Assembly (NCBI GenBank): GCA_024220505.1
Contig: JAKZZE010000003.1
Span: 1,302,001-1,366,000 of the forward strand
Origin: Rhizopus arrhizus
Taxonomy: Eukaryota > Mucoromycota > Mucoromycetes > Mucorales > Rhizopodaceae
Direction of reading: 5' to 3'
Length of the DNA: 64,000 nucleotides
Part shown: positions 1 to 32,371 of the stretch, piece by piece
How the letters are laid out: the number at the start of each line of letters is the position of its first letter
How positions within the stretch are numbered: the first letter of the stretch is position 1
The notes under the pieces: model-generated
What the model saw: the letters and a program-made list of their open reading frames with translations, nothing else
Databases searched by the model: none
What the model was told of the DNA's origin: nothing
Position numbers and translations under genes: made by a program

Positions 1-945
1 AACAACAGCGACATAACTCACATAATACATAATCAAGATAATACCATGGTACCAATGTATGCTCTGGTTGTAAGCAATCCATGTCATAATCAACGCTGCA
101 CCTAACAAGTATGTAGCATCTCGCATAAAAGTGACCCTTTGAGATTGAAAAGGTTTAATGATTCCCATACAACCAGATACTACAGCTACAATAAAAAATG
201 CTGCGCCAATCAATTCTCCTATGGCCAATGATCCAGCACCAGAATCCATCGCACTACATATATGTTTAGCTTCATATTTTTTTTTGTATATAAAAGAATA
301 CCTAAAAGTACTGAATAAATCAGGGCTTCCATTTCCAAAAGCCAAAATGGTAACGCCAGCCTAAAAAATAGGCATTTAACTCCATCTTTACGTTCCTTTT
401 AACCATTATTTTATACTTACCATACTTTCAGATAGTTGAAGTTTAGAAGAAATTGTCTGCAGATTGGGACCTAGCAAATTTTGATAAGATTATTTAATTG
501 CAAAGCCAGACTTCTTGTTCTTACAAAAGAAATCTGAAGCCACGATACTAATAGCTCCAAACAATACGAGTAAACATATCAACTAAGAAATATGCATTAA
601 AATAAAAGGAGGGGGTAACGGTTTGAACCTGATTTACAAGAATAATAGCTGCAGCCTGTTTCCAAATACCTAAACAATAATACAATTTTAAGTAAATGGC
701 TGTAAATCCATCACAAGACGACTGGACAAATTCGCATTGATCTTTTTGTAATTCTATGTTTGAGCAATTCTACAGAGACAATAAACATTTGCATGTACAC
801 AATAATTATTATTGTTAGGAATTACATTAGAAAATGCGCTTAACATGTTTGTTTTTGATCCTTTAGCAAAAATAATGAATGCTGTCAAAGTAACAATGAA
901 ACTGAACCAGCCAATAAAAAAACAAAGCCCTCGTTCACTTTTCAT
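1..945 (-). CDS. Na+/Ca2+ exchanger, CaCA family (5' part, runs off the left edge)
   Basis: Integral membrane cation exchanger, partial. Six exons can be joined on the minus strand: 826-945, 638-769, 525-582, 421-470, 302-360 and 1-253, all with GT..AG introns and a continuous frame. Seen: an N-terminal hydrophobic segment (residues 7-27), a Cys-containing extracellular-type stretch, the ASDFFCPNL segment, then the alpha-1 repeat GNGSPDLFSTFSA followed by GELIGAAFFIVAVVSG. This order is typical of intracellular or vacuolar fungal CaCA exchangers related to NCLX/SLC8B1 and yeast YDL206W. The alpha-1 repeat supplies the cation-binding residues. The alpha-2 repeat would lie outside the window. 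The Met at 945 is chosen because the exon is short, opens directly into the first membrane segment, and is preceded by an A-rich leader. Family call is firm; ion specificity and compartment are inferred. Confidence 0.88.
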
Positions 946-1232
946 TGTACATTAAATTAGATAAAAAAAAAAAGAAAAGGAAAAGGGACAAAAAGAAAAA
1001 CAAACGCATTATATATTTTATCCCTTACTCGTAAACACCCTACAATTAATTCCTCCTGATCCCTATTCTTTATTTTGATTATTTGACAGCCGTTGATTTC
1101 CAAATTTAGAAACAACATTGTTCACCATGCATTTTTACACAAAAAAGAGAGTTGATTTTATTTATTCCTGCTTTTTTTATTAATAAATTTATGTCAATTT
1201 TCTGGCATTACTTCATATTTCTTTTCTTCAAT

Positions 1233-2046
1233 TTAGAACTTCATGTCGTGAGGGAATTGACCCTTGCGAAGGCTGAAGGTAGACTTCAAGTAAGAAACGA
1301 AATAAGCATTCTTGGCAGCAACAGCAAGGATTTCCTTGTCAAGAGCCTTTTGGTCAGCAGCTTTGGATTCAGGGAAAGCAGCCTTCTTCTACAATATTAC
1401 TTAGTTTATTTGTTGTAAAATTTCCCGCTGTATTGTGTACCGTCTTTACCTGTTCACCTTCAAGGAAAGCCTTTTCAGTTTTGGCAGATTTCTTAAAGTA
1501 AGCATCATTGAACTTTTCATCAATCTAAAAAACCAGTAAGTAAAATATACACAAACATCTTCTTTATGTTACCTTGACGGAAGAGAGGTCAAGCTTTGAG
1601 GAAGTAGCAATAACATAAGCTTGGTTGACACGACGAAGAGGAACGCCGTTGACCTTGAAAGGACCAGTGACAAGCAAGAGACCAGAGTCCAATTGCTTTA
1701 AGAAAACAACGCGCTTTCCGCGGTAGCGACCAGCCAAGAGGATCAAGACGGTACCAGGAGTGATGTTGGAACGAAGAGCAGTCTTCTTAGCAGACTTACG
1801 GTTGATCTTGGGTTGAGGAACATCTTCAGCAGGGTAGAAACGAGGAGCCTTTTGGGCAGGAACGGTACGCTTACCGCCATTCTTGGCACCCTTGACTTCA
1901 ACAGTCTTTTCAGCAACAGTTTGCTTAGCAGGAGCAGCAACGTTGGTCTTTTGGCGCTTGTACAAGGCCTTCTTGGAGTAAACAGTGGAACGGCTGTAAC
2001 GGCTGACACCGGGAGCAAGAACGGAATTTCTGGGAGCGTGAGCCAT
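1233..2046 (-). CDS. RPL6: 60S ribosomal protein eL6
   Basis: Structural protein of the large cytosolic ribosomal subunit. Exons 1573-2046, 1450-1524 and 1233-1388 give 234 residues, close to the family length. Seen: basic N-terminus ([20 protein letters not shown]), then the eL6 core with [22 protein letters not shown] and the [22 protein letters not shown] segment, which are diagnostic. The C-terminus is Lys-rich. A splice-acceptor-like TTTTATAG lies about 18 nt upstream of the ATG, so an intron in the 5' leader is plausible, as in many fungal ribosomal protein genes; it was not proven. The gene is tandem with the exchanger gene, with about 290 bp between its stop and that gene's start. Confidence 0.95.
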
Positions 2047-3260
2047 GTCTATTCAATTACACCTATAAAATAAGTTAACACTGAGATGTAATGCGAACGG
2101 AAAGGAATAAGATGCTGTCTAAGCAGTTGTGTATTCAAAATATACGAGAAATTAAAATGAAATTGAGCCTTCCAATCTAATGTATTTAGTGGACCACACG
2201 CATATTTTTTGCAGTTATGAGATTATTTAAGTTATTGTATTTGTTTGCTATATCAAATCCACATATTCAATCTATCCATCCATCCATCCATCTATTTATC
2301 CATTCATTTTCAATTCTCTCCATTTTCTGAATACATTTACGCTTTACAGCATCACCTTTCCGCATGTTCATATGGTTACCTAATAGGGCCGGGAAAAAGA
2401 AAGAGAGGGGTTTTGTAAGTGAATATTTGGCACTTATGCCTTCTTCGACTGTATCTAGACGTCCAGGGAAATCCACGCAAAAGCCAGTCATATTAAAGTG
2501 GTCACACCAAAGCAGCCACAATTTACATCTTTTTTATTTATCCAAAAATTGTCGAATTCATGTTCTCCAATAAAACAAGATAATGTACAGTTTATTTGAG
2601 GAGCAGAGCATCTCAATCAAAGCCAAATGCAGCTCAATTAGCAAACACTATTTACAAATATGTCACTAAAATAGATAATAAATAATGGTACAAAACAACA
2701 TAAAATAGCCAATGAGCTCCTCAAGATTGGTATTGGTGTTAACGACTGTTTTCATTACAAGTTGCTTCTGTATGATAATACATAAAAGCATGTATTTTTA
2801 TTTAATACACCTCGCCCTCAACAAGATGAACAACAGATACAAGAGGATTGCAACACTTTGAACCTTCGAATGAGAAGAATCCACATATTCAATTGTGATA
2901 GAGGAGTTGTGATCAAGATTGATTAACAATTTTGAGTTTATATAAAAATGAATCATGGGCTCCTTTTTGATGAGACTAATTTGTTCCAGGCGAAGTTTGA
3001 TTATTCATCTGCAAATACAAGTTTTAATATAACTCCTGATATAATCACACATAAATGAAAAATAAATAAATTTAAGAAGATATACAGTCCACTTGCAGAT
3101 CTTTGTATTAAAATTTATTAATACTAGATTTACAGCTATAATTAATTAAAGCATCAGAAAGGATTTAACTGAATCTTTACGAAAAGGATATATATTTTAG
3201 ATACAATGATATTAAATAAAAATATAGCATTTTTCAATCTCGTTGAATTTTATAGTCTTT
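2047..3260. other. Intergenic region with a CATC-type microsatellite and a weak ORF
   Basis: About 1.2 kb without a supported gene. A short CATC/TATC tetranucleotide tract lies near 2270-2300. On the minus strand an open stretch (best Met at 2956, stop at 2798, 52 residues) ends in a hydrophobic tail preceded by Ser, like the C-terminal exon of a GPI-anchored protein. No upstream exon could be joined convincingly. The first about 150 bp would hold the eL6 promoter. Confidence 0.3.
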
Positions 3261-3665
3261 TTATTTTACGAGATATAACAGTCTGAGGTGATTACCAAAT
3301 TTCATGTGGGCATTGAGAGCACAAGCATTGTAGATCTTAGTACCCTCATAGATTGAACTTTTTTGAGCGAACATAAACCAAGGCTGCTGGTATCCATTGA
3401 TTTGAAGATAGAGTTTAATATGAAGCCCAATGCGCTGATGCATACCTCGTGTTATGTTACTTTGCACTGCACATTTGTTATAAGCAATTAAGGAAAGCCA
3501 CACTTCTGCAAAGAAGTCTCGGTTGATCAAATTAGCAACATCAAAGTTATCATTGTTAGTAATCTCATGAAGGAAAATGTACTTTGCCAAGAGTACGCGT
3601 GAGCGATGGTACTGTACACGAGGTTGATGAAGCTTTCCATTTGAGGATGCAAGAGAGAATTTCAA
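3261..3665 (-). CDS. Hypothetical protein, 134 aa, possible transposon-associated fragment
   Basis: Single open frame of 134 codons, not recognised. It is rich in Asn, His, Leu and Lys, with no signal peptide or clear membrane helix. Its texture (HRSRVLLAKYIFLHE ... YQQPWFMFAQKSSIYEG ... FGNHLRLLYLVK) resembles the large families of mobile-element-associated hypothetical proteins that are abundant in Mucorales genomes. That is an impression, not a match. No promoter or introns can be assigned. It stands in a gene-poor AT-rich stretch, so it may be a truncated remnant. Confidence that it is expressed is low. Confidence 0.3.
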   Translation of the reverse strand: MKFSLASSNGKLHQPRVQYHRSRVLLAKYIFLHEITNNDNFDVANLINRDFFAEVWLSLIAYNKCAVQSNITRGMHQRIGLHIKLYLQINGYQQPWFMFAQKSSIYEGTKIYNACALNAHMKFGNHLRLLYLVK

Positions 3666-28160: not shown

Positions 28161-28731
28161 CATATAGTATATACTTCAAGCTTAATTAAAATATTTATGA
28201 AATCCTCAAATCGAAAGCGAAATGACTGTATCATTCTACTTTTATTTCATACATGCAAGAGAGAATTTTCGAGCTTAATTTCAGTCATAGACTTGTTGGG
28301 TAATGTAAACAAGATTAATTTTATAGAAAAAATATCGCACATGATCCATTTTTAAAATAATAACACACACTTTATATAACGTTACAGTTAAAGAAACCAG
28401 GTTAGGCCAATGAAAAAAAAATTTGGTCAATTTAAAATTGGATTGGGACACGGTTGCCAAAATGGGACACAGATGGGAAAATGGGACAAAGGAGAGACAG
28501 AATATTAGTTTTTTTTTTTTGGACAAATAACAATTGATTTTAAAATGTTTAACTCACCTTTTTTTTGGAAAAAGCGAAAATGGAAATCAGACACAGGAGT
28601 TTTGTAGATTGAAGGTGGTTAGTACATTCTCCGTAAGCTTAAGAAAAAAAAAAAAACTTGTCCAACTTACACTGTACAGAAGTATGAGAGAGTCATATCA
28701 ATCACACGGAAAGCTGGCCACTGGAATCTAA
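28161..28731. other. Flank downstream of the Fanzor gene, with GGGACA repeats
   Basis: Noncoding. A short tandem-like array of (A)nTGGGACA units lies at about 28440-28490, and poly(T)/poly(A) runs follow. This is the 3' side of the minus-strand Fanzor ORF, the position where TnpB/Fanzor guide (omega) RNAs are usually encoded. No boundary or fold could be fixed by eye. Confidence 0.35.
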
Positions 28732-31403
28732 CTAACGCACAAAGGCATCAAGACGCTGATTTTTGTTTTTTGCAGCAAATAAAAATATATCCAGTATGTT
28801 ATGAGCAGCCATGGTATCACGATTCTATATGATATTGCAATTGTTTTGCCTACACTGCAATACTGTATGTACTCTTCGTTTTGATTTGGCGGTTACAACA
28901 TTGTCTATGTTTCTAGTCTTGCATTTGTTGCAGATTTGGCTTGTTAAGTATTCATCCACCATGCAAATGTCAAGCTGCTTTCCACAATATTTTTTCAAAG
29001 CCTTCTTAATCATCCGCACAGGAGCAGATTTATTTCCACGGAGGCTGGAACCAAACATACCATCACCAAAAGCAATGATGGTTTTCTTGGATCTTTTTTC
29101 GTGATCAATGGGAGCAGAAGGATAGTATCTATTCTCTTTCTTGGTAGATGTTCTTACGCCTGTAGTTGCTTTTTCATCGTATTTGGCACTACCGTGAATG
29201 AAACACTTACAGATCTCATGAACACCTTTTTGTTTTCTAATGTAGCATTCGAACTTCAGCTTTGACGACCTACACAGATTTTTGCATGTTGCTCAAGTAA
29301 ACAAGTAAAAAAAATATATGTTTTTATTTACCAAGATTTTTCATTGTAGTAACTTGTAATATCGTCATATAAGCTTAGTCTTTCTTTGCAAGCTTTTAAA
29401 AATTCTGCCATATTGGATGTCTTTAACAAGCTTAAGTTAGAAATTTTCAGAAACTGAGCCTTGTGTTGTTCTTGATGCTTTTTTCGTACAGAATTCGCAT
29501 CATTATGGCCACACAGATGATAGTACTCGTCCAAGCTTGTAGTCCTTTGCCTTCCGGATGTATCGACGGCAGTTACAAGTGTGGCAACACCAGGATCTAC
29601 TCCCCAAATTTCACAGCCGTTTTCAATATCTTCGAGGAAGTCCTCAGGCTGTTTTCCCAGTAGAGTATCTATTTGTTTTTTCTTCCTCACTCTAGAAAAA
29701 AGGAAAGAAATCGAATACCCATCGGTATATATAACGTTTCTATGTATAACTTGATTAAATTAAGGCTCTTATTTTTCAATTCAACTAAGCCAACTTACTG
29801 AAACTGTTTTTTCCCCTCTGAAAGGCTTTTTCGAGTTCGAAATCCCATTTTGGAAAAGTTAAAAAACCTATAGTAGAAGTCCGAGAGAGCCGATTTATCT
29901 TTAACACCTTTTGGGATATTTTCAATACCAGATTGCTTCAACAGTCGCCAGAAAGCTTGGGCATCTATTTGTATTGACTTCATCGCAAATGAGTATACAG
30001 ATAAGATGGAAAAAAAGCGATAGCCTCGCCGATCTGTGTATTTAGCAGGCGTGAATGTTCCATCTTCAATTCTAGACTGGATACTTGTAATAAATTTCAA
30101 AAGAGCAGGTAAATGGGGCTCAAGCTTCTCTAGTTTTTTCCCAAGCACTAGTGGTATTTTTGAATTAATGCTTTGCAGTACTTGTTCCTGTAAAGACTTG
30201 AAGCTTCGTCTATTGAGTATTGAAGTAAACGTGAGTTCTTTTAACTTCCTATAAATGTAGGACTTGGAGGCAAAGGTGGCTGGTTTTTCTTCCATAATAT
30301 ACACCTTCTCATTTATCTTTTGCTGAAGATAGAAAAGCCATTTGAAGAATTCATGAGGTTTGGAGTACAGGTCTTCCGCATCGCATTTCATTGTCTGATA
30401 TCGACTCCATAATGCATTCATTTTCTCTATGGTTTCTTCTAAATATTGATTTCTTTCTAAAGATGAGGGCCATGTTGATTGCTGTTTCTGCTTTAATGTA
30501 TAAACATAGTGAGAGAGTGCTTTTCTTTGGGCAACTGATAATCCTTTACAATAGAAGGGAGAAGACATATCTGAAAAAGCTTCCAGAAAAAAGCGGGTTG
30601 TTTTCCTTTCATGGTTTTCACATACATGGTTGCGTATGAGTACATCGTATTGTTTACACATAATAGACAGAACAGACGAATATCCAATACTCTTGAGGGA
30701 TTGCAGTATTGTTTCATTGACTTGGCATTCGTTGCAAAATTCAACAAAGTAATCTTGACAGTATTTAGGGACTTTTTTGCCATTGCCAGTTACAACAGTG
30801 AAAATAGAATAGACAAGAGTATGATCAATAATTGGCACTTGTTCCCCCTTGTTTAAAAGCTTCAAAAAAATATAGTTCATGAATAGTGAGCCTACGTGGA
30901 TCGCTTTGGTCGTGTAGGCCACTACTGAAGCAATCTTTTCAGAAACCCTTGTGTCCGTACATATATTTTTTAAGGAGGATTTGATTGCAAAAGTTTCCTT
31001 TTTCTCATCAGGATTGTGAGATGGCTCCTTTTGCTTCTTTTTTGGGCAAAGGTTGGATGATGATCTTGAGTGAGTATTCAATCCGCAAGAAGGACATGTC
31101 TTTTCTGTATTGCTTTTTGTTTTCATTCTAAAGTCCTGCAAAGCAAGTTGTTTATCTATTTTCTTCTGTATCTTTTTGGAGGTAGGAGGAAGAGCACTAG
31201 GAGTCTGTGAAGTAGAAGCCTGTGAAGTAGAAGCAACTGAAGTGGTCAGAGCAGATGTAGCTGATATATTATCAGAATTGACTTCTTGAAAAAAAAGTAA
31301 GGAACATGATACCTCGCAATGTGTTATTTTGGTACTTACTCTTTAAAATCTTTCTTTTTGTTGACGAGTTCTTCGTGGGATCATTTTTATGTCTTCGCTT
31401 CAT
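28732..31403 (-). CDS. Fanzor (eukaryotic TnpB-like RNA-guided nuclease), four exons, one nonsense codon before RuvC-III
   Basis: Exons 31340-31403, 29799-31284, 29332-29691 and 28732-29269. The frame is open for 784 codons to a TAG at 28825-28827, then 30 more codons to a second stop at 28732. Seen: a Ser/Thr-rich leader; a CCHC-type zinc knuckle (CPSCGLNTHSRSSSNLC); a long helical middle; RuvC-I IWGVDPGVATLVTAVDTSG (Asp about 549); IIAFGDGMFGSSLRGNKSAP; RuvC-II VDEYLTSQ (Glu about 743); a four-Cys zinc ribbon (ICNKC ... LQCRQNNC); then CNII, TAG, NRDTMAAHNIL (RuvC-III Asp about 788). In the family a Trp normally precedes NRD, so TGG to TAG is the simplest explanation. Without readthrough, the third catalytic Asp is lost. 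Known family members are transposon-borne, omega-RNA-guided DNA nucleases. Function here is inferred. Confidence 0.85.
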
Positions 31404-32371
31404 TATCTATTATAAGCTTCAGAAAGAAAATAAATGTTTATAGATTTGTTCAAGTTCAGTTACTTTCTATTGAAATCCTTAATGACCAATGAAAATTTTG
31501 TGATATATAACAGTAGCAAAACTGATTAATTGCTTTGGAGCATCTCAAAACTATAGCTTGTGGAGATCCAGCGTAATTACTAGTCATATGCTTTTCTTGA
31601 CTATTTAATTAATAGACTGGCAGGTAATGTAATTGGCTATATAGCTTATGTAATGTTATAAGATAATAAGCATTTTGCATAAAATTTATTCTACCTCATA
31701 TTTTGTAATATACACAGTGGGGGCTAAGTAAATCTGTCCATTTTGAAGATGAGTATTCATAACTTAAGCAATGGTTTCAGAAATTACTGCTTTGTCCGAT
31801 TTCCATTTTCGCTTAACTAGCTTACATAGAAACCGATAAAATCAATTAGCATTAATTCAAAGGAGAATAAATTCAGTTTTTCTTCTAGACATATGGAAAC
31901 TTAGAAAAAAAAGAATCAATGCGTTGTAAGATATGATTATCGTCATTCAAGCTTGTACAGTGTTTTTAATCTTGGCTGTACATGAATAAGAGAAGCTCAA
32001 TTTAAATAATTTAGAGATTACATAGTTTAATAGTAAACGAAATAGTATAGTTTTGAAAAACAACATTTGCAAAATGATAACTTTGTGTTTCTCAAATTTA
32101 ACTCTTCCTATAAAGCAGAGAATAATAAAAACACTAATTCATTTGATATTTTTGCTATTACTTACTTTGTTTAATATAAAGCAAGGTGCAAATGTTGTTC
32201 CTTTTTTTTTTGTAAAATTGGTTCTTATAGCGAAAGCAATGTGTACCTTCATTGCTTTTAAAGGAAAAAGGTCCATCTAGCCACCAATCAGATTGTTGTA
32301 GAACTGCATTTAATTCGCAGTAGTATTTTTTTTTTTTTTCTTTTTCACAAGATAAAAAAGAAAAATTGATA
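31404..32371. other. Intergenic region between Fanzor and ISA1
   Basis: About 970 bp, AT-rich. It holds the divergent promoters of the minus-strand Fanzor and the plus-strand ISA1. A CAGTGGGGGCTAAG sequence near 31718, resembling the end of a Tc1-type element, has no partner that I can find. A 75-codon hydrophobic ORF (32053-32280) is not supported. Confidence 0.4.

Follow-up and report, generated by a model that had tools for sequence, protein, structure and literature searches.

An Interrupted Fanzor1 Gene of Rhizopus arrhizus, Probably a Recently Inactivated Copy of a Tc1/mariner-like Element

The Fanzor Gene of the Window

The stretch of DNA that was analysed (the window) consists of 64,000 nucleotides of the Rhizopus arrhizus genome (assembly GCA_024220505.1, contig JAKZZE010000003.1, positions 1,302,001 to 1,366,000), and it contains a Fanzor gene interrupted by a single nonsense codon. 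This copy is called W, and other loci in the same genome are given L-numbers (for example, L014 and L018). The gene lies on the minus strand, from 31403 to 28732, in four exons of 64, 1486, 360, and 538 bases, which are listed with the other features in Table 1. A reading made from the sequence alone had described four exons that splice cleanly with one internal stop, and it was found that the frame does run from ATG to stop across GT/AG introns. The premature TAG at codon 785 was the sole coding lesion detected in W. As the same reading had stated, the 30 codons that follow (786 to 815) are open and include the NRD motif with the third catalytic Asp.

The acidic triad of the gene is D549, E743, and D788. 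At RuvC-I, D549 begins a DPG motif as in Fanzor1 proteins, for which this motif is described as a mark (PMC10711439). The RuvC-II Glu is found in the arrangement E743-YLTSQI-C750, in which six residues separate it from the first zinc Cys, and this is the rearranged position reported for Fanzors and the nearest TnpBs rather than the usual TnpB position (PMC10711439). The zinc ribbon is of the C4 type (C750-x2-C753 ... C-x4-C781). These three features had been named in the sequence-only reading and are all present; the zinc knuckle that it also named is putative, seen as a motif (C85-x2-C88 near the N terminus, with later His/Cys). When W was read through the TAG, the zinc-ribbon domain PF07282 scored 32 bits relative to a cut-off of 26.3, and the exon 4 piece ending at the TAG scored 16 bits, below the cut-off, as did the unrelated Stanniocalcin family with 19.8 bits.

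Copies of the gene have different numbers of the 15-bp tandem repeat in the coding sequence of exon 2; the differences are multiples of 15 bases, and a single inserted block can be as long as 120 bp.

Table 1. Features of the Fanzor copy W and of its element, in window coordinates.
Feature	Position	Strand	Remarks
Exon 1	31340..31403	-	ATG at 31403-31401; GT donor follows
Exon 2, N-terminal part	29799..31284	-	15-bp tandem repeat at about 31203-31241
Exon 3, RuvC-I	29332..29691	-	D549 (DPG) codon 29597-29595
Exon 4	28732..29269	-	E743 codon 28953-28951; zinc ribbon 28932-28837; D788 (NRD) codon 28818-28816; final stop 28734-28732
Premature TAG, codon 785 (Trp position before NRD)	28825..28827	-	TGG in 22/24 copies, TAG in 2/24
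Fanzor element remnant	28383..31814	-	right (3′) end present, at 28383; left (5′) end lost past 31814; aligns to 193-3632 of the 3638-bp L014
Right terminal inverted repeat, about 220 bp	28383..28600		ends ...CTTTAACTG-TA
Inner stub of left terminal inverted repeat, 29 bp	31786..31814		outer part of about 190 bp not found in the window
Flank just past the right end	28363..28382	-	putative guide site, assuming an omega-RNA of the SpuFz1 kind (by analogy with PMC10432273)

Relation to Fanzor1 Proteins

The best relative of W outside its own genome gave an E value of 3.5e-125, and therefore the match is beyond chance. The closest outside proteins were from the Mucorales (Thamnidium elegans with 58% identity, Rhizopus microsporus, and Cokeromyces recurvatus), and a profile search added relatives from Parasitella parasitica and Mucor saturninus. 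The Parasitella piece, P0016, was 61% identical to exon 4 of W and 55% identical to the exon 3 frame. In a search of the PDB, P0016 matched SpuFz1 (E 3.3e-5) and GtFz1 (E 8e-5), with its WNRD aligned to the WNRD of SpuFz1 and the WNRN of GtFz1. As judged by these alignments, W has a sequence relation to the solved Fanzor1 proteins by way of P0016. PF07282 matched 11 of 15 relatives at E values of up to 0.1. The TnpB/Fanzor-type identity that had been proposed is borne out by the outside relatives, the DPG motif, the shifted Glu, and the matches of P0016, and W is a gene of the Fanzor1 family, though not a working member.

In SpuFz1, two Mg2+ ions are reported to be held by E541, D383, N385, and D606 (PMC10432273), and GtFz1, which has Asn at the position of D606, is reported to cut nevertheless (PMC11423790). 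The loss of a whole segment in W differs from this substitution: the 784-residue product would be without the third catalytic Asp and all that follows it, and therefore should not cut.

Sister Copies in the Same Genome

The genome searched comprises 50.26 Mb, in which PF07282 had 43 matches and the element of W had 78 matching stretches. We aligned 24 near-complete copies (W and 23 others), leaving out L028, which belongs to another family, the fragments L033 and L034, and two fragments found as matches only (C34:752729 and C12:119238). A copy was counted as strictly intact if it had the ATG, three GT/AG introns, and one final stop; this was the case for 12 of the 24. The other 12 have frameshifts, splice-site changes, or early stops; in W and L018, the TAG at codon 785 is the one departure from these criteria. 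The count of intact copies is perhaps one too low, as L016 fails only by its intron 1 acceptor, which may be shiftable by 3 bases. The codons for D549, E743, and D788 are kept in all 24 copies, and the final stop is TAG in every one; in W and L018, the third catalytic Asp is untranslated because the premature TAG comes first.

The sequence-only reading had supposed that a Trp normally precedes NRD and had suggested looking for paralogues with TGG in the same genome. The 22 such copies, together with the Trp at this position of SpuFz1 and GtFz1, agree with that supposition. Divergence of the 24 copies from their majority sequence was 0.98 to 2.70%, and W differed from the 23 others at 2.38 to 3.73% of aligned bases; this is a young Fanzor1 family. 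The defect in W had been thought recent, and this is supported in a relative sense, as it is the sole coding lesion, is absent from the 22 TGG copies, and occurs in a family of such low divergence.

Ends of the Element

The fuller copies of the family measure about 3.4 to 3.7 kb and are bounded by inverted repeats about 220 bp long, which were seen as self-matches in 7 of 20 loci. In W, the initial 192 bp of the element are absent, and no further part of the left end was detected within the window; therefore, W should not move. In 27 sequences searched (one of them L028 of the other family), the right end was found in 25, and it reads ...CTTTAACTGTA in essentially all of these, with the tip ACTGTA; W keeps only this end. 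No fixed base was observed in the flank outside the right end of the 25 sequences. The left tip was found in 17 of the 27, being exactly TTACAGT in 9 and a variant of it in the other 8. It is preceded by a complete AATTA in 13 of the 17, the single positions being matched in 14 (A), 15 (A), 16 (T), 15 (T), and 16 (A). Because Spu-1, the element of SpuFz1, is reported to have a conserved CA upstream of its left repeat and a target-adjacent motif (TAM) of CATA (PMC10432273), AATTA is by analogy the predicted TAM of the W family. For PpFz1 of Parasitella, the reported TAM is ATN (PMC11423790).

The TA-CAGT...ACTG-TA tips point, by their sequence, to the Tc1/mariner group. No transposase was seen inside the family element. 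In the search for an autonomous partner with the same terminal inverted repeat (TIR), there were 47 tip matches (control 0), and no tip pair around a transposase was present among the stretches fetched, which covered part of the tips.

Loss of the left end was observed in 9 of 28 copies or fragments (W, L013, L019, L023, L026, L033, L034, C34:752729, and C12:119238), whereas the right end was lost only in L013 (9 left versus 1 right, binomial p 0.021). Such one-sided loss is unusual in a TIR element and is reminiscent of MCi-2 of Mucor, the 5′ ends of which are described as fuzzy (PMC3627910). Left truncation of L015 and L031 was rejected, their left-tip pieces lying about 4 kb off, beyond inserted DNA; in L015/L041 (C18:405956-413491) and L031/L038 (C21:334145-341977), the left repeat is seemingly split by an insert of about 4 kb with reverse-transcriptase-like frames, as judged by eye. 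The right end of the family comes in two structural types, since at least 11 copies (one a fragment) are without about 185 bp inside the right repeat (window 28463-28647) and keep the last 80 bp or so.

Two other loci were noted in the course of this work. At C21:63676-65448 (L043/L039), some 3 kb away from a solitary and diverged end belonging to the W family, there is an apparently whole IS630/Tc1-like element with 172-bp inverted repeats that are 98.8% alike and a 462-codon frame that is DDE-like by eye, of which the scanned part matches helix-turn-helix (HTH) families below the cut-off. In L037 (2296-4078, on C4), mariner-like transposase fragments (HTH_32 and DDE_3, both below the cut-off) adjoin, by eye, a Fanzor-like C-terminal fragment, an arrangement that is possibly an old composite.

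Selection on the Family and on W

Changes found in single copies were compared with a neutral expectation drawn from the mutation spectrum in introns and untranslated parts. Across the family, there were 205 non-synonymous (N), 145 synonymous (S), and 3 nonsense changes, relative to 311, 123, and 26 expected (binomial p 2e-7 for N versus S and 4e-6 for nonsense), so that N/S was 0.56 of the neutral ratio. Therefore, the gene was under purifying selection while its lineages spread. W has 12 N and 5 S private changes, a ratio close to the neutral one (2.5 to 1), with no detectable constraint.

Origin of the TAG at Codon 785

Five nonsense events were found in the 24 copies: those of W and L018 at codon 785, and one each in L020, L025, and L032, the last at codon 61. 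The stop is TAG in W, L018, and L032 and TGA in L020 and L025. Descent of W and L018 from a TAG-bearing subfamily was rejected. The two copies are 2.84% apart, L018 being only the 8th closest of 23 to W (2.74% in the 20-copy alignment); they have two exclusive variants in common, as do 15 of 276 pairs; and their nearest private variants differ (28850 and 28814 in W, 28853 in L018). There may have been a very short conversion tract between them. Single-copy G-to-A changes occur at 0.18 per site across the 24 copies, and both TAGs are most simply explained by the same G-to-A change having happened twice. RIP-like mutation (repeat-induced point mutation) was rejected, as C-to-T in CpA is not raised (CA 0.259, CT 0.279, CC 0.308, CG 0.424). 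An undetected intron over the TAG is unlikely, since the alignment to P0016 runs gap-free across codon 785.

The same codon was inspected in other Fanzor families of the genome. An old degenerate family of 22 stretches, with a mean pairwise divergence of 23%, has TGG in 12, TGA in 6, TAA in 1, another codon in 2, and a deletion in 1, which makes 7 stops in 21 readable copies. G-to-A changes at the two G positions were found in 1/21 and 8/21, compared to a mean of 0.17 over 90 G/C sites. Although the second G ranked 7th of the 90, the sum for the pair (0.43) is like that of the other eight GG pairs (0.09 to 0.46), and the Trp codon was therefore rejected as a stop hotspot; the stops of the old family are ordinary decay. 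In a further Fanzor-like family (L001 to L008), the motif is WQRD and none of the 8 loci has a stop at the Trp codon. These loci and L044 (C9:412995) are closely similar copies, most of them with WQRDVNAA, and have another C-terminal design.

Interpretation and Alternative Explanations

Our interpretation, with a probability of roughly 0.9, is that W belongs to a multi-copy, non-autonomous family of Tc1/mariner-like Fanzor1 elements, was inactivated recently, and is at most a donor of guide RNA. Because unbroken sister copies exist in the same genome, the stop codon is read as ordinary decay and not as a new kind of protein. The anatomy of the family, the status of its copies, and past selection on it are as observed above. 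In the mechanism that we consider most likely, intact copies would make an omega-RNA-guided RuvC nuclease that cuts sites without the element, by which the element would persist in the population; the omega-RNA scaffold would lie at the conserved right end with the guide in the flank beyond, and a Tc1/mariner-type transposase would act in trans. A G-to-A change in W turned the Trp codon before NRD into TAG, which would leave W as a dead by-product of the family that may at most supply guide RNA to intact Fanzor proteins from other loci. For the W family, a right-end omega-RNA and cleavage guided by it are both putative, by analogy with SpuFz1.

Several results weigh against this interpretation. 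The protein of W, when searched directly against the PDB, matched 0 chains, and a profile of 15 relatives gave weak matches (Cas12g, E 0.086; SpuFz1, E 0.09). An AlphaFold2 model of the relative P0001 was poor (mean predicted local distance difference test score, pLDDT, of 50.2). The N:S ratio of W was not significantly different from that of the rest of the family (p 0.45), and so its 17 changes are too few to demonstrate a lack of constraint on W by itself. The N:S ratio was also alike in strictly intact and in broken copies (99:58 and 106:87, p 0.13); therefore, most lesions, including the TAG of W, are probably late. Finally, the chance of any coincidence among five nonsense events is 0.045, and two of them share codon 785, which is weak evidence that conversion or tolerance of the TAG plays a part.

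The alternative that survives best is an extra activity compatible with our interpretation, namely that W resembles a ghost locus: its protein would be dead, and its right end would continue to produce an omega-RNA that serves intact Fanzor proteins in trans. The right end of W is present, as in most of the sequences searched, and SpuFz1 ghost loci without a protein gene are reported to give omega-RNAs that work with SpuFz1 in human cells (PMC10432273). However, folds of three right-end stretches were no more stable than shuffled sequences (z 0.55, 1.36, and 0.80), and the putative guide had 11 matches at up to 3 mismatches (one being its own locus) compared to 12 for the control, with no second target beyond the control. 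Such a role is rather unlikely.

Far less likely is the suggestion, made in the sequence-only reading, that the truncated form is kept as a nuclease-dead binder. The 784-residue product would be translated, bind omega-RNA, and occupy DNA without cutting it. In the stronger form of this idea, which we hold to be just as improbable, the TAG at 785 would be a favoured and tolerated truncation with two origins or two spreads in a family that otherwise has almost no nonsense changes; the resulting Fanzor would bind a guide without cutting, and would compete with intact sister copies or restrain their cutting activity. If true, the truncated Fanzor would be a eukaryotic counterpart of dead TnpB regulators. 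W has no other coding lesion and retains D549, E743, and the zinc ribbon, and the same truncation recurs in L018, the gene and both ends of which are otherwise in order, with the low coincidence chance given above. Nonsense-mediated decay may be weak when a stop lies in the last exon, and because this is the case in W, decay of its transcript may be weak. Against this, the private changes of W do not indicate constraint, its left end is lost, the truncation occurs in only two copies that are not closest relatives, the old family displays ordinary decay at the same codon, and there are 12 copies with an intact nuclease gene in the same genome. Among the open-licence papers listed in the searches, no title or abstract opening dealt with retention of a truncated Fanzor as a nuclease-dead binding protein.

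An assembly or consensus error at 28826 is about as improbable, and a lone base error is made less likely by the same TAG at a second locus, where the neighbouring variants are different. The least credible alternative is that adenosine-to-inosine (A-to-I) editing in some life stage turns UAG into UIG, read as Trp, so that the gene is functional: the stop of W has U at -1, the context reported to be preferred in filamentous ascomycetes (PMC11156358), and TAG accounts for three of the five premature stops, whereas the Fanzor relatives of W are Mucorales, the other two stops are TGA, and the Trp codon of the old family became TGA or TAA and never TAG.

As an inactivated copy, W itself is of little importance, and it is the surrounding family that is useful. 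With 12 intact copies, clear ends, the AATTA motif, and a signal of selection, the benefit of Fanzor to transposons is testable in one fungus.

Comparison with Known Systems

TldR proteins are nuclease-dead, TnpB-related regulators of bacteria. If the truncated protein of W were made, guide binding without cutting would be common to both (PMC13418256 for TldR). The difference is that the lesion here is a single nonsense codon, carried by 2 of 24 copies that are not closest relatives, and the 12 N to 5 S changes of W give no sign that a dead form is conserved under selection.

The Fanzor1 families MCi, ROr, and PBl are from the same host order and are described as Fanzor1 genes in DNA transposons, some without a transposase of their own (PMC3627910). 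Compared by description, MCi-4, ROr-4, and PBl-3 are MuDR-like with 9-bp target-site duplications, whereas the W family has TA-CAGT tips with no longer duplication seen; Fanzor1 is also reported from Tc/mariner elements (PMC3627910). PpFz1 of Parasitella parasitica is, like W, a Fanzor1 of the Mucorales, and its structure has been solved; its reported TAM, ATN, fits inside AATTA (PMC11423790). The PpFz1 chain was not among the PDB matches for the profile of relatives and for P0016.

The closest likeness in design is to Spu-1 of Spizellomyces punctatus, the element encoding SpuFz1. Both are TIR elements carrying only Fanzor, with TA at the ends and, as far as reported for Spu-1, no transposase found inside (PMC3627910, PMC10432273), and both have conserved bases outside the left end and the WNRD motif (PMC10432273). 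The W family is larger, at about 3.6 kb with three introns and TIRs of about 220 bp, compared to 2.1 kb, a single open reading frame, and 33 bp in Spu-1. It also differs in its left-end motif, AATTA, and in having copies that are 1 to 2.7% from the majority, relative to about 8% in Spu-1. In the 2013 report, 9 of 17 full-length Spu-1 copies were intact (PMC3627910), similar to the 12 of 24 that are strictly intact here. TIR elements that carry Fanzor1 but no transposase, and of which some copies are intact, have been described since 2013 (PMC3627910); the W family adds a member to this group, in which W itself is a broken copy.
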